Assembly: GCA_002261195.1 (NCBI GenBank) | Contig: MVBO01000023.1 | Span: 64,432-128,431, forward strand | DNA length: 64,000 nt | Source: Bifiguratus adelaidae | Taxonomy: Eukaryota; Mucoromycota; Endogonomycetes; Endogonales | Direction: 5' to 3' | In this document: piece after piece, positions 4,772-53,505 of the stretch | How positions within the stretch are numbered: the first letter of the stretch is position 1 | Layout: each line of letters begins with the position of its first letter | The notes under the pieces: model-generated | Seen by the model: only the letters and a program-made list of their open reading frames with translations | What the model was told of the DNA's origin: nothing | Databases searched by the model: none | Translations under genes and position numbers: made by a program

Positions 4772-5334
4772 ATAAGATGGGCTAATTTCCAGTAATTGTG
4801 TTAATCATCATTGTTTGTTTGGATGATGGAAGGCGTTCTTTTTCATTTGTATTCAGACCAACCCCCTCCCCCAAGGTCGTTTTGGCATTCGGGGATTTTA
4901 CTGTTTCCTGTTTGTTTGAGGACAACGCTCCGCATAACCTTGCCCCTTGCTTACCTTGGGCATCCGGGGCTACCAATGTAAAACATGTTTTGCGTGTGCG
5001 GAACCTTGGCTCGATCGGCCTCTCCATCAGCAAAGATTTAGGGCCCGCACAATGGGCATTTCCAAATATGGCCATCAGACTGACAGAGTAAGAAGGTACA
5101 TTTGTTTGAAGCTCATTGTTGATAGAAAGCATGTTTGATCCAGAGACTCGTCCATCCAATGGATATAGACATTTTCGTTGCCATAGGTGGCAAACATCAA
5201 ACTTAAAGTGATTGATTGACACTCATTATCAGCTTTCTCTCGACTCTTTGTCCTCGCGCAACATGGCCAGTTGTCTTTAAGTTTGTCTCCGCCAAAGGGT
5301 AACCATCCCGAGTACATAGACATCTTTCATAAAG
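4772..5334. other. Intergenic stretch, no gene seen
   Basis: This sequence separates the peptidase from the next plus-strand gene. Open frames occur on both strands, up to 146 codons on the minus strand, but their products have no recognisable motif and mutually overlap. They look like chance frames. The last 100 bp presumably hold the promoter of the 5335 gene. Confidence 0.5.
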
Positions 5335-7008
5335 ATGGCTCACTTCAATTCATTTCCGACGTATACGTTTACTCCTCAGGCGCCTCCCCAGTATTCCAAT
5401 CCACCGACACCTCACATCCTACATGCCTACAACCAACCTTCTCCCTACCTCGGCACACACACCCGTTGCACCTCTCCCTCCTTCTCCATTGCCTCTCACA
5501 ACGATGCCTTGTACAATGAGACCTTGTACCCTTCTGAACATGAATTCGAAGACATTGTGGCCGAGTACTTGTCCAATTTATCCCCGAAGAAACGAGATAA
5601 AGCTCTGGTGGATACAAGACGATATGAACTCATCCTCGCTGTTCTCGAAGACCCGAAGAACACCTCCATATCCACCGCTCAATTCCGCTTCTGGGTGAAG
5701 AAGATGTTTCATTTGGATGAGGACGTGGATGGACGAGGTAGCGTTTGGCATGATGGAAAGCCAGTCGCCAGACGAGAAGATATTCATCAAATTCTCATTC
5801 GAGCTCATCGGGAAGCGCAACATGGTGGCAGAGACAAGACATCAGCGCTCGTACGTAAACGGTACTCATGGATACCCAAGGAGTTGGTTGCACGCTTTGT
5901 TCGCCATTGCCCTTTTTGCATCTCTAGAAGAACAAGCTCTTCGCCTTGCCTTCCTGATGGTATACCGAGAACACCTAATCCAACGCAGTCTCTCATGGTC
6001 TCTAATGGCCAATTCCTGCAAGTCAACAAGGGTGGACCAATTAGATCACCTTTTGAGGAGGAAGACAATGACGATGAAGATTCCGATTATGTCGAGGAAG
6101 AAATGGCGGGTGCAGGATTACACATTGAGTGGCAAGATTGGAACAATGGCTTAGGTGGAGATGACAGAGGAGGTAAGGAAGAGAACAACATCGCTGCGCA
6201 AGACATATTCCCAAGCTACGAAACCACAACACCGGTTCCAATGCATATACCTGATTTCTCGGCCGAGAGCACTTTAACTATCTCCGACGCATCTAATGTC
6301 TACTCCTTTCCCCATCAGCGAACACCATCCCTCCACCAGCAACAGGTGCCAATGAACATTCCCAAATCGGCGACGTGCCCAGACTACAGCAACAATGGCA
6401 ACAAATTATGGAGTCCATCGCTTCTCGAACCCTTGAGTGACTCACCCAATCTGTCAGAGGCATTTCCCACCAATTCCTACATTCCAGATTGGCTTGTACT
6501 CCAAGGTATAGAACCCACAGGACATGTGCCTTCCGATTCCCTATTGCGCGCGGACAATGGCGATCCCTTGAGCACCTCTCCCAACATTTTCGGCATTACC
6601 GCACCTTTGGAATACGATGTGGAAGGCAACGCACCTCCCCTATCGACGCCCTACACGGAATACGCGCAACTAGCGCAAGGATATGATACCAATGCCTTCT
6701 ATCAGAGCAGTAATCTGGCGATGATGCAAGAACCACAAAAGCCCCTTCGACCTCTATCGTCTTCTCATTCGGAACCAATCGCTTTGATCGAACATTATAC
6801 ACTCTCACCCTCATGGCACAACAGCTTCCTGCCGCAGCCAACCAACGAGCATCCTTCTGCGCTTGTTCGCAACCCGAGTGGCATTGACTTTGTTACCGGC
6901 TGGCCAACCTTTGATATGTCATCGAGCTTCACGGATGGTCTCGAGGATGACAATAAGGCGGCATGGATGCGCGTTGTCCCCGATGTCGTGATCCGCGACG
7001 CCTTTTAG
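5335..7008 (+). CDS. Protein with an integrase-type zinc-binding (H2C2) domain, putative regulator
   Basis: A single exon of 557 residues. Residues about 65-130 form a conserved block with ISTAQFRFWVKKMF, followed by IHQILIRAHREAQHGGRDKT and YSWIPKELVARFVRHCPFC. This is the H-x(n)-H-x(n)-C-x2-C pattern of the zinc-binding domain that precedes retroviral/Ty3 integrase cores. No integrase catalytic core (D,D35E), reverse transcriptase or gag region follows. Instead the remaining 400 residues are low-complexity (Pro, Ser, Asn, acidic runs such as EEEDNDDEDSDYVEEE). That fits a domesticated domain in a host regulatory protein. I recall similar unnamed proteins in fungi but no assigned function. 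A nuclear DNA- or chromatin-binding role is inference. Confidence 0.75.
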   Translation: MAHFNSFPTYTFTPQAPPQYSNPPTPHILHAYNQPSPYLGTHTRCTSPSFSIASHNDALYNETLYPSEHEFEDIVAEYLSNLSPKKRDKALVDTRRYELILAVLEDPKNTSISTAQFRFWVKKMFHLDEDVDGRGSVWHDGKPVARREDIHQILIRAHREAQHGGRDKTSALVRKRYSWIPKELVARFVRHCPFCISRRTSSSPCLPDGIPRTPNPTQSLMVSNGQFLQVNKGGPIRSPFEEEDNDDEDSDYVEEEMAGAGLHIEWQDWNNGLGGDDRGGKEENNIAAQDIFPSYETTTPVPMHIPDFSAESTLTISDASNVYSFPHQRTPSLHQQQVPMNIPKSATCPDYSNNGNKLWSPSLLEPLSDSPNLSEAFPTNSYIPDWLVLQGIEPTGHVPSDSLLRADNGDPLSTSPNIFGITAPLEYDVEGNAPPLSTPYTEYAQLAQGYDTNAFYQSSNLAMMQEPQKPLRPLSSSHSEPIALIEHYTLSPSWHNSFLPQPTNEHPSALVRNPSGIDFVTGWPTFDMSSSFTDGLEDDNKAAWMRVVPDVVIRDAF

Positions 7009-12191: not shown

Positions 12192-14522
12192 ATGGCTACG
12201 GTGCTCATTGACAACTACGACAGCTTCACTTGGAACGTCTTTCAATACTTTTCTGCTCTCGGTGCTGAAGTCGCTGTATTTCGCAATGATCAGACAACGG
12301 TAGAACATGTCGCCTCATTACAGCCTCGCAACATCGTGATCTCACCCGGTCCGGGTCATCCAAGCTCTGATGCTGGCATCTCGAGAGATCTTATTGAACA
12401 CTTTGCTGGTAAGGTTCCAATTCTTGGAATCTGCCTCGGTGAACAGTGCATCTTTGAGGCGTTTGGTGGACAAGTGTCTTACGCGGGAGAAATCTTTCAC
12501 GGCAAGACATCGGTCATTCGTCACGACGGAAAGGGTGTTTTCCGTAATGTTCCGCAGGATTGCAATGTCACTCGCTATCATTCACTGGCTGGTGTACCAA
12601 AGACGCTACCCAAGGATCTCGAAGTGACCTGCAAGACCGAACATGGTATCATTATGGGTGTGCGCCACAAGGAATACACCATCGAGGGACTTCAATTCCA
12701 CCCCGAAAGTATCTTGTGTGAGCATGGCAAGGATATGATTGCAAACTTTTTGTCACTCAACGGAGGTACGTGGGCCGAGAATCCTCAATCCGGTATACGC
12801 GCTCCTTTGTCATACAACGGACAAACGACTGAGGAGGGTGCGAATGGCGTTCCTAGTGCGACCTCAAAGGCGGTGCCTTCGGTTCTCTCCAAAATTCACG
12901 AGCAACGGTTGATCGACATTCAAGCGGCAAAGGCGATCCCAGGCTCCTCACCTGAGGATCTGCGAAAATTACTTTCATTGCACATCGCACCGCCACTGAT
13001 CGATTTCCCTACACGGCTGCGTCAGACCAAACCCGCCGTATTGGCAGAGATTAAACGTGCGTCGCCTTCCAAGGGCAACATTGATCTGTCCATCAACGCT
13101 GCTGAGCAAGCGTTGCGGTATGCGTACGCTGGCGCCAGTGTGATATCCGTGTTAACCGAGCCCAAGTGGTTCAAAGGTTCTCTCAATGATATGCGCAACG
13201 TACGACAGGCCTTGTCCGCCCTACCAAATCGACCCGCCATTCTTCGAAAAGATTTCATCGTCGACACGTATCAAATCATGGAAGCAAGGCTTTACGGTGC
13301 TGACACTGTACTTCTAATCGTTGCCATGTTGGGAGAAGAGCAATTGGCTGAATTGTACGCCTTTGCCAAATCGCTAGGCATGGAACCCCTCGTCGAGGTC
13401 AACAATGCAATGGAAATGGAACGGGCAAACGAGCTTGGTGCAAAGATCATTGGGGTGAATAACCGCAACCTCCACAACTTTGATGTCGACATGGAGACAA
13501 CCAGTCGTCTGGTCAAAATGGTCCCGGAGGGCGTGATGCTCTGTGCATTGAGTGGCATCGCTTCGCGACAGGACGTTACTGGTTACATCGAGCAAGGTGT
13601 GGACGCATTCCTCATTGGCGAAGCGTTGATACGATGCGAGGATCCCAAGGTATTCATCCAGCAGTTGCTTGGTAAAGACGAGGAGGAATTTGTGGATAGC
13701 TCCGATGAGCTTGTCACGACGCCATCAACCTTGGTCAAAGTGTGTGGTATTTCTACACCAGAGGCTGCTGTCGAAGCAGCGAACGCCGGCGCAGATTTCA
13801 TTGGTCTTATTTTTGCCAAGAGCCGCCGGCAGGTCACTCTAGAGCAAGCACGGGAGATTATTGCCGCCGTCAGAGGTCTAGATGAAGGGCCGAAGGATTC
13901 AGTGGCAGTAGACGACATCACAGCCCGCGATTGGTTCACAATACAAGAGGCTCTGCTACGAAACGTCGGCAAAAAGCCACTTATCGTCGGTGTCTTCCAA
14001 AATCAGCCCTATTCCTACATCACCAAAGTGGCAACGGAGCTCAACCTCGACCTCGTACAACTCCATGGTTCTGAGTCTCCAGATCTCTGCCCTTTCCTCC
14101 CACGGCCTGTCATCAAAGCCTTCCACATAGACAGCAACAATTACTCGGCCTCTTTGATACCACAGATCACACAGCCAGGGTACAACAATTTTGTCCTATT
14201 GGATGCTAAAGTGCCACATTTAAAGGATGCTCAAGGTGGCGCTGGCGTTGCATTCGACTGGTCGATTGCGCGCGAAATTGTGCAATCCAATCTTAGAACA
14301 GAAAATGGGGTGAATGCTCGATTAGGCACTAGCTCGGTGAGCTCCGGTGGACGTTTCCCCATATTTCTCGCAGGTGGACTTAATCCCGACAATGTCGAGG
14401 ATGCTGTGCGTCAGGTTCAGCCCATGTGTGTCGACGTGTCAAGTGGTGTTGAGACGGATGGTCAGAAGGATCTCGGTAAAGTGCGGAGTTTTGTGCGGAA
14501 GGTCAAGGAGCTTGTGTTGTAG
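12192..14522 (+). CDS. TRP1: Trifunctional tryptophan biosynthesis protein (TrpG-TrpC-TrpF)
   Basis: A single uninterrupted exon of 776 residues with the standard fungal fusion order. Residues 1-200 are the glutamine amidotransferase of anthranilate synthase (VLIDNYDSFTWNVFQYF, oxyanion loop ISPGPGHPSSDAG, nucleophile loop GICLGEQC, histidine in FHPES). Residues about 235-495 are indole-3-glycerol-phosphate synthase (VLAEIKRASPSKGNIDLS, GVNNRNLHNFDVD). Residues about 515-776 are phosphoribosylanthranilate isomerase (LVKVCGISTPEAAVEAANAGAD, LDLVQLHG, FLAGGLNPDNV). The protein supplies the amidotransferase subunit for Trp2 and carries out the next steps to indole-glycerol phosphate in the cytosol. 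Length and motifs are complete and no defect is seen. Confidence 0.97.
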   Translation: MATVLIDNYDSFTWNVFQYFSALGAEVAVFRNDQTTVEHVASLQPRNIVISPGPGHPSSDAGISRDLIEHFAGKVPILGICLGEQCIFEAFGGQVSYAGEIFHGKTSVIRHDGKGVFRNVPQDCNVTRYHSLAGVPKTLPKDLEVTCKTEHGIIMGVRHKEYTIEGLQFHPESILCEHGKDMIANFLSLNGGTWAENPQSGIRAPLSYNGQTTEEGANGVPSATSKAVPSVLSKIHEQRLIDIQAAKAIPGSSPEDLRKLLSLHIAPPLIDFPTRLRQTKPAVLAEIKRASPSKGNIDLSINAAEQALRYAYAGASVISVLTEPKWFKGSLNDMRNVRQALSALPNRPAILRKDFIVDTYQIMEARLYGADTVLLIVAMLGEEQLAELYAFAKSLGMEPLVEVNNAMEMERANELGAKIIGVNNRNLHNFDVDMETTSRLVKMVPEGVMLCALSGIASRQDVTGYIEQGVDAFLIGEALIRCEDPKVFIQQLLGKDEEEFVDSSDELVTTPSTLVKVCGISTPEAAVEAANAGADFIGLIFAKSRRQVTLEQAREIIAAVRGLDEGPKDSVAVDDITARDWFTIQEALLRNVGKKPLIVGVFQNQPYSYITKVATELNLDLVQLHGSESPDLCPFLPRPVIKAFHIDSNNYSASLIPQITQPGYNNFVLLDAKVPHLKDAQGGAGVAFDWSIAREIVQSNLRTENGVNARLGTSSVSSGGRFPIFLAGGLNPDNVEDAVRQVQPMCVDVSSGVETDGQKDLGKVRSFVRKVKELVL

Positions 14523-23471: not shown

Positions 23472-26400
23472 ATGGTGATTGTTCAATCCGGCAATAGCCT
23501 CTCGACCTCGGAACCGACAGGCCAAGACACCTCGGGAGAGGTCCCGCATCATGGCGCTGGCCAAGAACCAATGAATAATTATCAGGATTCATCTGTAAGC
23601 GCGCGCATGACCAGTGTCTTGAACAGCGTAACTGAATCTATCAAGAATATGACCACATCCACAGCGAACAACAAGAATAGTGACCAACCTCCAGACTCAA
23701 ATTTTGTCTCTCCTGAAGGCCATAATCGCTATCGCGATGGATACATTGCAGAATCCGGTATGAATTCGACGCAAAGTTCTATAAAGCATGGGTCAAATGG
23801 CTACGAAACGGATGGAACGAATCAAAGCATCAAGAACGGTGTTATAGGTGATACCCATGCCAGCAATTCGACTGCTTTGCCGAACGTCGATGCGAATCCT
23901 GACGATAACACCGAAGTGAACGAAGTGTCACATGCTTTCATTCCAGATGCGAGCAAAGCTAGAGGTCCAACCTCTAAGGAGTCCGACATGGTCGACCTCC
24001 ACGTTCCCCAGAATAAGCGACAGGAGAGACTTGAGGACAAGCCTGGCATGAGCAATCACCGGGCAAACGAAGTAAAAGATCCATTGAAGCCAATCTCTGA
24101 TGAAAAGCATCGTCAAAGTCCGAACAGCAAGCATTCCCTGAACCCTGCGGCCGGAGAAGATCGCTTCAAACTGGACCATGCGGCGTCCACGCAACATACG
24201 ATACTCAACAAGGTCATACCTTACAACTTGACCAAGTCATCGGTCGACAAACCACCATTGCCCCTTCCACCAACAACGCCAGAGGTACTCACGCGCAATC
24301 TTCAGAACAAAGCCATGAAATACATTGCAGTATCTGGCTTGTCAGCCTACTTTCTCGGCAGATGGAATTTCAGTATCGTTCTCGTCATCATTGCGGTCTT
24401 CATCGTCGTGTGGGCTTACCGTAATCTCGCCAGCGAAGGTCAAGTCGGCTTGGAATGGCAAATCGAGAAGAATGCTGGAATGAAAAGTTTATACACGAGT
24501 GATGGTGAATCGGTGGAATGGTTCAATTATATGTTGGAAAAGATTTGGCGCGCAATTGATCCCAAAACTTTTGTAGCGATCGAAGATATGCTCGAAGATA
24601 CAATGGTTGATCTCGCTCCTTCTTTGATTAAAGAAGTCAAGGTCTCAGACTTCGACATTGGGGTTCAGGCACCTCGTATTACGTCCATACGCATGTTTCC
24701 ACCATTGAATTCAGACACAGAGGAGTCCATCTTTGGCGAAGCAACCTTTTCATTCCATGCATCTCCCGTAGCGTCCGCGACGTCAAAGAGAGGCAATTTG
24801 TCCGCACCTCCAGGCCTCAGCATTTCTCTCAAGACGGGACTCAAGGCTGTGCTCACAGTGAAGGGTGAACTTACCGCTCTTTCAGGCAAGGTCCGATTCA
24901 AGCTCATCACCGGTCCCGATGCTCCATTCTTGACGAAAGCTATCATCGCCTTCACCACCACACCAGTGATTGAGACCGGAGTCATGCCATTAACAAAGCA
25001 CGTTAACATCATGCACTTCCCAGTTATCAAGAAACTGGTGAACGATTCCGTAGCTGCTGCTATGCAGGAAATGGTCGAGCCCAAAAGCATGACATTGGAT
25101 CTCGAGACTTTACTAGCTGGAACATCTCATGATGTTACGGCCATTGGCGTCCTCAAGGTTGACATGTACGAAGCCACGCGCAGGTGCAAAGATGTCAAGG
25201 AAATGAAGGACGCGTATGCATCGGCCTGCCTCTCACATCGACCTGGGAAAACATTCACATCTACTCGCGTTTTGACCAACGACGAACATCCAATTTGGAA
25301 CGAGGTCCTCTATGTTCTTGTGACAGAGGATGACATTTTGATGGACAATAACCTGGATCTCACCGTATGGGATGCCGACAAAGTTGCGCCTGACGAGAAA
25401 TGGGGCCGTTTGCAAATACCCGTCAGAGAATTGACCAAGGCAGAGCTATATGAGAGCAACACAAAATGCAAATACACACAAGAGGAATGTGAATATTTCG
25501 ACGGGTCAGTATTGCCTTGATTTGGTGGTAACAGGTCAATTAAACCTTCAGCAGGTGGTCGTCTATTGACGGTAAGGATGAAGAAGAGTCAAAGATCAAG
25601 CTTCACTACAAAGTGACATTCCATCCCAAATATGCCACGGTACGAGGTCACAGCATCACGCGAGGCCGCACACTGGAAGACATGGACCGACAAATCCAGC
25701 ATGAGGCCAATCCGCGCAAGAGGGAGAAGCTTGAAAAAGAGCGTAAGGGCATTGAGGAGGAGCAAAAGAAGCATGCAGTCGATGATGAGCACCATTGTAA
25801 GTCTATCAATTGGTTCATCCCTGCGTCCATTCTGACAATCAATCAAACTAGCTGGCATTTTGAATATCCTGATCATTTCGGCCATTGATCTGGAAATTAA
25901 CGATCCTCAGCTTATAGACGACAAAGAGGCGAAACATCCGTACAGCCCTAGCTCCGTCGTCGATCCCTATGCATGCGTATATGTAAACGATACAAAGGTC
26001 TTTAGATCCAAAGCCAAGATGAAAACACCTTCGCCGGTAAGATGCAACTGTTTATCGAGGATGCACCTTACTCACCTCGCATAGCATTGGAACGCAGGCA
26101 CGGAGCAATTCATTCGAGAATTTAAATCTGCGTCAGTGCGGATTACCGTCAAGAATACTTTGGATGTGGAACGTGATCCCATCCTTGGTATGGTCTATAT
26201 GGATCTGCCCGAGCTCTTTGATGGCCAGACTGGCGAAGTTCGGGAAGTAACTAGGTGGTTGCCGCTGAGAGGTGGTATTGGATCCGGAAAAGTTCTTGTT
26301 CAATTCATGTACAAGCCAGTAAAGATGAACTTGCCCAGAAACCTGTGTGGTTATGGTAAGACGGAGAGAATGTCCGCATCGAACCCTCATTGACTTCGTC

Positions 26401-36282: not shown

Positions 36283-38316
36283 CTATACAATATCTCCTTC
36301 ATCAGGTTCTACAGCAGCGAGCGTTAGCTTGCGCAGGAAATCGAATGGTGTGGATTGAGAAGGTGTAGGTTCTCGCAAGACTTCAGCTTCAGTAAGCCAG
36401 CCATCGAACAAGCCAATTTTGACATCAATCCTTGCAATCTCCTTGCGTGGACTCACATTGAGAAGGCGATATTGCGAAGTGTAGATTGGAAAGGATCGTT
36501 GCTGAACTTCAATTGGACATGGTTTCTCGTCCCAGAGGTGGTTCCCATCTATACTCCTTGGACGGTGTCCGGATGCCGTTCGCCGTAAAGATGGCTTGAA
36601 ACCAGCTTCATGAACATCATTCGGACTATAAATACCCCGCAAAGGGACCTCTGCGATGCCAACGACTTCCCTTGTCTTTCCAGCGTTGCCGACCAGCTGT
36701 GTAACGAGCCAGCCGTTTTCTGCAAATTGTACCTCAATATCTTGGAGGCTTCCCTGTAGGAAGAAACAGGTCTTTGTGGCGGCTTCTTGCTTGTCTACCG
36801 TGAATTGACCCGAATTCAGTGATATCGGATGTGTACATATTTTGTCGCCAAAAACTGAATATTCGAACCGATAGGTCATGTCTTCATAATCAAACCCATT
36901 TCCAAGAAAGCCACGAGGAGCGATTGGCGAGTTTGTACGAGACGACAGTGGTGTACCCTCTCCGTCTCGAAGGTGATTTAGATGCCTGCCGTTACATATT
37001 GCAAAATAAAAGGTAAATTTTCGATCCGTGTCGTCTCCGACTTGAAAATCGAGCGTTGGATCAGCTGAATAGAGTGATTGAGGTGATGGAGGCAAAGGCG
37101 GTAGGCACATGCGTGACGAGCGCCGGGCGCCTTTTGGATTTTCGCCAGTAATCTTCTCGTGTTCGAGCTGACCAAACGTGGAAGCGTTGAAGCTAACATC
37201 TTCTTTGTCTTCGTCATGACGAAGTGCTCTTCGCTTGAAGGGATTAGAGTCCGGTCCACTATCCCTCTCAAAAGAATCTGATGAGCTTCTGTTTAGTCCC
37301 AGCTTTGAGGAAAGAGAACGTTTATGCGCAAACTTCTCGGTCATTCGATCATGAAATTGGCGCATTCGTTGCCTGTGTCGCTCTTCTTCTTCGTCTTGCG
37401 CGGCTCGTCTCTTCAACGCGCTCGTCAAAAATGTCTCCGCATCTTGGTTCGAGAGTTCAGATGATTGCCTCTTGAGGGATGCCGGCGGCTGACTAGAGAA
37501 CGACGGTTCGATTGGCAGAGAAAGTTCTCGGCTGAACAGAGGTATTCTGGATGTACGTGGCGTTGAGACACTTTTTTGAGGTGTTGGAGGCTGATCGGGA
37601 AGATAACGAGAGGTGAGATGGAACGGCGGTGGCCATGCCCTGACTGCAGGCGAAAAGGTGGTTGTTGTTGGCGAAGGTGTGAAGGCTGTACTGGAATCTA
37701 TCGGGTGAGGCATCTCGGTGATGAAAAGACCAGCTTTCACATAGGCAGTTGAGTTTTTGTTTCCCTTGGAGACAGTGACTACATTCCATCCACCTTTATC
37801 TCTGACAAAAGCCTTGATAGCTGAGACACCTGTTCCATTCGACGGCTGGTTTCCCGAACTTTCAACCCACCGCGCTTTTCGAACGGACAGCACCGTCGAC
37901 GCTATCACAGTATAGTCACTACCATTCTCCGCCAGTTCACATATATCAATAGTAACCTTGCCCTCGTTTGATACACTTTCGCTCAACGCGTTCACCAACT
38001 GTCCTGATAAGCAGTAGCCGACCGTAGAGTTGAACTTGGGACTGCCTTTCACATTGGACACTGGAATGGTGGATAGTAGCGTAGAGGGGGGAATAAGGTC
38101 GGAGAGGTTAGGCGGCAAAGGTATGTGAAGACGGGTTTGCACAAACAGTTCGCGATCTGGATGAGGCGGAAAGTCTTGCGCTAAAGAGTATCGTAACGCG
38201 GTGTTAGCAAGCTCTTACAAATATTTTCAGTGTACAGGACAGCTGTACTGGGCCATACCTCTTTCGATAGCTACCAGTATGGCATACTGACACTTCTTCG
38301 TGAGTAATAGTGTCAT
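36283..38316 (-). CDS. C2-domain protein resembling centriolar CEP120
   Basis: Exon 1 is 38316-38259 and exon 2 is 38180-36283, joined by a 78-nt intron in phase to give 651 residues. The N-terminus reads CQYAILVAIERAQDFPPHPD, the first strand of a C2 domain. Strands continue through GKVTIDICEL, TVLSVRKARWV and YVKAGLFIT. The middle is Ser/Pro-rich with a charged helix (RRAAQDEEEERHRQRMRQF). A second C2-like unit near residues 380-600 has KFTFYFAICNGRHL, MTYRFEYSVFGD and VVGIAEVPLRGIY. Two C2 domains with these strand patterns resemble CEP120 and its DUF3668 region. That assignment rests on weak similarity only. It is divergent from Mtf1, with about 100 bp or less between the starts. Confidence 0.6.
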
Positions 38317-51891: not shown

Positions 51892-52438
51892 ATGGGCAAC
51901 TTGTTTTCCTCCACTCCACTGACACCGGAAAGAATGGCCGAAGTGAAAAGCATCGTTGAGCAAGCTATTGATAATAATAAGATTGCTGTCTTCTCCAAGT
52001 CTTACTGCCCGTGAGTATCCGACACGCTCCGACCTTTTTTTCGGGATTATGTAACTTGCTCAACGGCGGCGTTTGTCGCTTCTAGGTATTGCAGAAGGGC
52101 CAAGGAGACCTTGACTCAACTTGGCGAGAAGTTCTTTGCCTTGGAGCTCGATGTTGATGGTAAGTGGTCGCTGGGCGTGGGTCAGAAACTCAAAGGTCGC
52201 ACACACTCGTGCGGTAACTTGCAGAGAACGGCAATGATATTCAAGCTTATCTTCTCCAAAAGACGGGTCAACGAACTGTTCCCAACATCTTCATCAATGT
52301 AAGTACTCGCACTGACCATCCGAGTAAACTTGTGCCAACTGCCAAATGTTACAGAAACAACATATTGGTGGATGTGATGACTTGTTGGCGGCCAAAGCCA
52401 ACGGAAGCCTTCAAAAGCTGTTGACTGCTGCGGCTTAA
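51892..52438 (+). CDS. Dithiol glutaredoxin (CPYC), possible N-myristoylation
   Basis: Four exons, beginning at 51892 and ending at TAA 52436-52438, with intron joins inside CP|YC, DVD|ENG and IN|KQH. The product is about 117 residues, the normal size. The active site is SKSYCPYCRRAK, an ordinary dithiol CPYC with no selenocysteine. The glutathione-binding TVP loop is QRTVPNIFI, and HIGGCDDLL carries the GG motif. Glutaredoxins reduce disulfides and glutathionylated proteins using glutathione. The chosen start gives MGNLFSS, with Gly2 and Ser6 fitting an N-myristoylation signal, so membrane association is possible. It converges with PSTK, 53 bp away. Confidence 0.93.
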
Positions 52439-52491: not shown

Positions 52492-53505
52492 TCATGGTGG
52501 TTGTTCACATGTACAAATGTCCCATTCTTGTCGAAACATCTCAGATATGGCTTGTATCGCTATTTCGGAATCGGCTTCCCGTCTCTTTCTCTTTACTTCT
52601 GCGAGGAATGTTCGTTTGAACTTTGCCAGTTCTTGACCAAGGCTTGATCTGCGGTCAGCAGCCGCAGATTGCATGATTTGAGAGACGGCTTTATTCACTT
52701 GCAGATTGGCCTGGGCGAGATAAGACTGCTCTGTTTGCGCACGAGCAGCGAGCTGCGTCGTAGAGTGTTAGCTCTGTAAGAAAGATCCATGCATTCACAG
52801 ACCTGTTCTTGTCGTCGCAACGCCTCTCCGCGCCTAAACTCAATCTCGACCGCAGAGGCTTTGGCCCATGACTCGAGTAATTGCTGCCATAATAATTCCG
52901 CACTGCACTCCATGCATCAGCTGACACAGTTATAAGCACTGGCGTTCATTGACCTACGAGACATGAACATTGCCATCTATCCTGAGGGAACAATGACCTT
53001 CCCACGTCCTCTTGCCTTCGTCATACTCTAGGGGAGGTTCAAATCTGGCGCACATTTGTTTCAGCACATTTTCGGACACACGAGTAGCATCAGGTCTTGC
53101 TGCGTTCCTCTGCAGTGCCGTAGTCAAGCCCACATCCACGTACACTTGTATATATGTGACGCCAGTTTCCTGACATACTTGGTATATCTGGTGTCGCATG
53201 CTGCGATAATACATGTTGTCGTCCACCAAAAGACATGCCCTCGCAGTCTTTGCTTCCTTGAGAGTTAAAGTTTGCTTGCGCAGGTCGTTCAAAAGGTCAC
53301 TCCTTGCCTTCTTGAAAGTCGGCATGTCCGATGCGCCCGATGCCTCAACTTGCCATTTCGGCAATAGTGCGTCATATTCGAACACTCGGACAGTCGTGCC
53401 ATCATCGCTAGCGTCCTTGAGTTGGTGAGCTAGTGTGGTCTTGCCTGCTCCAGGTAGTCCACATAACACCACACAACCATACATGCATCGGCCCGACTGT
53501 TTCAC
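52492..53505 (-). CDS. PSTK: O-phosphoseryl-tRNA(Sec) kinase (PSTK)
   Basis: Exons 53505-52958, 52902-52803 and 52752-52492 join in phase (introns of 55 and 50 nt), giving 302 residues. PSTK phosphorylates Ser-tRNA(Sec), the second step of eukaryotic selenocysteinyl-tRNA synthesis. The P-loop is VVLCGLPGAGKTTLAHQL. The family signature LLVDDNMYYRSMRHQIYQVC matches human PSTK almost residue by residue. It is followed by VDVGLTTALQRNAARP and EPPLEYDEGKRTWEGHCSL, again PSTK-specific rather than Kti12-like. The C-terminal helical domain continues through AELLWQQLLESWAKASAVE and NKAVSQIMQSAAADRRSSL. All key parts are present, so the enzyme looks functional. PSTK is otherwise known only from organisms that use selenocysteine. 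Confidence 0.9.

Follow-up and report, generated by a model that had tools for sequence, protein, structure and literature searches.

The use of selenocysteine (Sec) in fungi has been described for non-Dikarya species, one member of the Mucoromycota included, which carry both Sec machinery and selenoproteins (PMC11378755, PMC7988114). The reported set comprises nine species in three groups, with seven of the nine belonging to the Harpellales (PMC11378755, PMC10386755). Harpellales possess SelenoH, and the expression of Sec machinery has been noted in another fungus, Zancudomyces (both PMC12611240). Bifiguratus adelaidae, assigned to the Endogonales in the NCBI taxonomy, is named among the fungi reported with Sec by Mariotti et al. 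2019, according to PMC7988114. Two papers of 2021 denied the presence of Sec in fungi on the basis that annotated fungal proteomes are without the letter U (PMC7988114, PMC8559351). Such a test is blind to selenoproteins if their annotation ends at the UGA codon. The stretch of B. adelaidae DNA analyzed here (the window, 64,000 nt) contains a gene that very probably encodes the kinase PSTK of a Sec pathway operating in this fungus.

The kinase gene and its sequence relatives

The gene in the window (52492..53505) is real and lies on the minus strand, running from an ATG at 53484 to a TGA at 52492, and its spliced model has three exons and encodes 295 aa. Exon 1 (52958..53484) carries the start codon, the kinase domain and a KTI12-family match, exon 2 occupies 52803..52902, and exon 3 (52492..52752) holds the TGA stop codon and, together with exon 2, supplies the C-terminal part of the protein. 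Intron 1 (52903..52957, 55 nt, GTAGGT..CAG) is predicted from the open frame and the continuity of the profile match, and intron 2 (52753..52802, 50 nt, GTCTGT..CAG) is also a prediction. Position 53505, where the original prediction began the gene, is a GTG, and the first in-frame ATG is 21 bases further in. A four-exon gene for a CPYC glutaredoxin (window 51892-52438, plus strand) converges on the PSTK gene, with 53 bases between the two 3′ ends.

The motifs on which the protein was originally named PSTK could all be read in the translation of the minus strand as quoted: the P-loop, GLPGAGKT (residues 9–16, 53437..53460, positioned by hand count), DDNMYYRSMR (residues 88–97, 53194..53223), which aligns with DDTNYYNSMR of the M. 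jannaschii PSTK, and LQRNAARP (residues 124–131, 53092..53115). Inside the last is an RxxxR motif. The match to the family is beyond chance, as judged by profile scores and 36 database relatives. The best profile is that of eukaryotic PSTK (TIGR03575, NCBIfam; 103 bits, E 1.8e-29), followed by archaeal PSTK (NCBIfam; 84 bits) and Pfam KTI12 (78 bits in full, 69 bits from exon 1 alone). Both PSTK scores are under the curated cut-offs (382 for the eukaryotic and 290 for the archaeal profile), and the cut-off of 382 is also missed by three of four comparison proteins, with frog PSTK alone passing. Positions 2-244 of the 249 in the archaeal profile align with residues 5-282 of the window protein, and a C-terminal tRNA-binding domain is predicted. 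Among proteins of solved structure, the nearest in sequence are two M. jannaschii PSTK entries (E about 3e-9). Identity to the 36 relatives is 24–40%, for example 39% over 55% of the length for P0003 and 33% over 88% for P0001; several are named L-seryl-tRNA(Sec) kinase, and no named fungal PSTK occurs among them.

Selenocysteine machinery elsewhere in the assembly

It had been predicted that SepSecS, SelD/SPS2, EFSec, SBP2 and tRNA(Sec) would lie elsewhere in the genome, and a search of the whole B. adelaidae assembly (18,628,366 bases, 18.6 Mb) recovered all five. The tRNA-Sec is at C23:39599-39685 (67.1 bits) and has the anticodon TCA (ARAGORN) and one non-standard acceptor-stem pair; of nine matches it alone passed the cut-off of 47, the runner-up reaching 34.6 bits. 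SepSecS is represented by four exon matches on contig C31, in which the QSTDKNF block, presumably the PLP-lysine site, is present, and eEFSec by three pieces of the fourth domain on contig C249 with an EF-type GTPase start upstream, both genes being spliced in part. SPS gave five exon matches on contig C2, each below the SelD cut-off, and the SBP2 candidate (C233:43107-43214) is one of eleven L7Ae matches. The absence of every other Sec gene, which would have spoken against the original prediction, was looked for, and what was found is a PSTK alongside tRNA-Sec, SepSecS and further Sec genes. Among 14 named control genomes, eEFSec was matched in none and SepSecS in three, and matches above the cut-off were obtained for tRNA-Sec in five, SelD in two and L7Ae in seven.

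Within a single exon, the SBP2-like L7Ae domain is followed by ankyrin repeats (C233:42896-44628, or 4896-6628 of locus L044). A stop-free stretch of 451 codons spans the latter half of L7Ae and the repeats, for which the chance is about 1e-9 given the base composition, and the single possible intron at the junction between them (87 nt) would preserve the frame. A 541-aa piece matched the Pfam families Ank_2 (94 bits) and L7Ae (29 bits). The L7Ae part with its preceding stretch shares 39% identity with both of two database proteins, P0157 and P0158, in a search restricted to proteins between 0.55 and 1.75 times as long as the query; these two have no ankyrin repeats and show zinc-finger matches. 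P0157 and P0158 are themselves unnamed, and the name SBP2 comes from the likeness of the spliced domain to that of human SBP2; the candidate is predicted to bind SECIS RNA. No report of an SBP2 with ankyrin repeats was found in the literature searched, most subscription journals lying outside its range, and the sole match for SECIS binding protein together with ankyrin was a human fibroblast proteomics study.

In-frame UGA codons and SECIS-like elements

The expectation that UGA-containing selenoprotein genes would be present was borne out by four genes, SPS2, GPx, PRXL2/SelenoU and SelenoH, each with an in-frame UGA at a known Sec site and homology on both sides. In SPS2 (C2, UGA 23726-23728) the sequence reads FRLTALSGLKG-U-GCKVPQAELLKMLEGL, with the UGA at the catalytic site. 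The GPx gene (C33, minus strand, UGA 33110-33108) reads NVASK-U-GLTPLNYKQL, and PRXL2/SelenoU (C226, minus strand, UGA 5053-5051) reads TRRPG-U-QFCREEA, with a UxxC motif. SelenoH (C274, UGA 38111-38113) reads IEQANT-U-GTYRSNA, an AxxU motif in which Ala replaces the first Cys; the human counterpart has IEHCTSURVYGRNA (CxxU). The spliced stretches of the four genes contain one UGA each and are otherwise stop-free up to the end reached, SPS2 having been spliced up to its fifth exon. An 8-nt micro-exon (C2:23815-23822) is found immediately past the UGA exon of SPS2. In the GPx gene on C33, exon 1 ends with NVASK and the intron ends in TAG directly before the TGA, a junction at which annotation easily errs.

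Cys is found at the corresponding site in a second GPx (C228, where the junction chosen by eye gives TGC), in Rdx (C273) and in MsrA (C112), which disfavors a reading of UGA as Cys throughout the genome. UGA is also an ordinary stop in B. adelaidae, since the PSTK gene ends with it. The Rdx family search at E up to 10 had a sole match, the C273 gene, which has the Cys form YCTGCRW and an intronic TGA; this search missed SelenoH, which was recovered with a human query. Of ten human families used as queries, SelK, Sep15, SelM, DIO and SelT had none at E ≤ 1; the same search gave four reductase-like matches (L047, L049, L055 and L057). MsrA on C112 was rejected as a selenoprotein on account of its Cys, as were a seemingly degenerate MsrA-like stretch (C214:14503-14688) with TAG stops and a Cys in the relevant position, and SelO on C216, the end of which reads ICSCSS by eye, with Cys and without Sec, and where a preceding TAG may be intronic. 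Four selenoprotein genes are thus a lower bound, set by the families covered in these searches.

SECIS-like elements were scored by a home-made scheme (AUGA, a helix, AA after 9–14 bases, and GA) in the 500 bases past each stop, with 200 mononucleotide shuffles per 3′UTR as the null; the four elements were chosen by eye before the scheme was written, so that the score is not independent. The SPS2 element (C2:25187-25248, 25 bases past the stop) scored 24.0 and the SelenoH element (C274 from 38442) 19.5, values reached by none of the 200 shuffles in either case. SelenoU (C226 from 4402, minus strand) scored 21.5, reached by two of 200, and the weak hairpin of the Sec-containing GPx (C33 from 32523, minus strand) scored 16.5, reached by 12 of 200. 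As for the Cys controls, GPx scored 14 (29 of 200 shuffles), MsrA also 14 (4 of 200) and Rdx had no site; relative to its shuffles, the MsrA score stands out nearly as much as that of SelenoU, although it is the lower of the two. AUGA, AAA and GA are carried by three of the four elements, and the folding of the SPS2 hairpin exceeds that of its dinucleotide shuffles by 2.6 standard deviations, with four of 200 shuffles matching it. An earlier, stricter scan recovered the SPS2 element and a different fold in GPx, and nothing in the 3′UTR of SelenoH or SelenoU. Rfam SECIS_1 matched the SelenoH element at 18.4 bits (E 1.1 in that search, gathering score 35), covering its AUGA, AAA and CCUGA core; there was no Rfam SECIS match in the 3′UTRs of SPS2, GPx and SelenoU, and across the whole genome SECIS_1 gave nothing above the cut-off. 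The single sub-threshold match of that scan, on C34 (20.7 bits), was rejected, as no selenoprotein frame adjoins it by eye. In a MAFFT alignment the four elements did not line up according to their structure. As for the SECIS elements of the original prediction, the candidate hairpins are good in SPS2, SelenoH and SelenoU and weak in GPx, and none has an Rfam match above the cut-off.

Alternative explanations and related systems

The window protein could be a paralogue of Kti12, or some different P-loop kinase outside Sec synthesis, since Pfam puts PSTK and Kti12 under one KTI12 family (78 bits here) and the fold class is common to both. However, the genome has a separate, full-length Kti12 on contig C233 with the reverse profile preference, scoring 289 bits on KTI12, 24 on eukaryotic PSTK (against 103 for the window protein) and 51 on archaeal PSTK. 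Kti12 identity was rejected for the window protein on this comparison (78 against 289 bits), and the two PSTK profiles rank above KTI12, as anticipated. A tree had been proposed for the same question, and was built from 38 rows (the 36 database matches, the window PSTK and the Kti12 of this genome). On one side the window protein is found with 27 other matches, on an end branch of 1.37, and none of the starred sets that comprise half the rows or fewer includes it; the Kti12 is on the opposite side, beside animal PSTKs, with support open and a branch of 3.54. The two are not joined. As Kti12 is represented by a single row, whose branch is very long, the test is weak and a Kti12 clade is beyond its reach. 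With the rest of the Sec pathway also present in the assembly, a role outside Sec synthesis is highly unlikely.

Protist or animal contamination would fit the low identity (24–40%) of the window PSTK to its database matches. Against it, the gene is on the same contig as a single-exon, trifunctional TrpG-TrpC-TrpF-type enzyme (window 12192-14522, plus strand), the TrpC of which has Jimgerdemannia (65%) and Endogone (61%) as its best named matches among the first 120 of 5309, pointing to a Mucoromycota near the Endogonales. The GC content of the eight other Sec loci is 0.458–0.499, compared to 0.483 in the window, the introns read are short (42–77 nt), and nine different contigs carry Sec genes, the Kti12 gene lying on one of these as well; contamination seems very improbable. 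The pathway might instead be a relic, its genes recognizable but Sec insertion having ceased, and the weak GPx hairpin, the lack of SECIS elements above the Rfam cut-off and the loss of the resolving Cys from SelenoH lean in that direction. Yet the frames read remain open and conserved past the UGA, and no broken frame occurs in the machinery exons read (SepSecS and eEFSec in part), so that we give the relic explanation a small probability.

The reading preferred here is a PSTK in an operating Sec pathway, in a fungus reported in 2019 to use Sec. The route begins with the loading of serine onto tRNA(Sec) by seryl-tRNA synthetase. The window kinase would phosphorylate this serine on Ser-tRNA(Sec), SepSecS, with selenophosphate from SPS2, would convert the product to Sec-tRNA(Sec), and eEFSec, SBP2 and a 3′UTR SECIS hairpin would then put in Sec at the in-frame UGA of SPS2, GPx, PRXL2/SelenoU and SelenoH. 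That the enzymes are functional and Sec is inserted we infer from the genes, the UGA positions, the hairpins (good in three of four) and sequence kinship, all of which are observed. A variant form of Sec insertion is quite possible, although tentative: an SBP2 with ankyrin repeats in one protein may link the recoding of UGA codons to some interacting protein, and it occurs beside a SelenoH in which AxxU would be unable to form the usual Se–S bridge within the motif. What may be new is the fusion of SBP2 to ankyrin repeats, the AxxU motif of SelenoH and the set of SECIS-like elements.

Sec use in B. adelaidae has most likely been published already, and the main claim is probably not new. As the original prediction allowed, the organism probably belongs to the small published set of Sec-using fungi, with which the genome shares Sec machinery and selenoproteins. 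At the level of sequence, the genome speaks against the denial of fungal Sec and, with its Sec machinery, its UGA codons at four known Sec positions and its SECIS-like hairpins, lends support to what was claimed in 2019 for a Mucoromycota, and there are now concrete genes for asking why Sec was lost in most fungi and kept in few. The abstract of the 2019 study is said to report that consensus SECIS elements are absent from most fungal selenoproteins, whereas SECIS-like elements are predicted in three of the four genes here. The window protein shares the P-loop, DDNxYYxSMR, the RNxxRP block and the C-terminal part with eukaryotic PSTK (TIGR03575) of oomycetes and animals, its best profile, yet has only up to 40% identity over partial length. 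In the SBP2 candidate, the L7Ae domain and its flank are shared with P0157 and P0158, and the ankyrin continuation is absent from these two.
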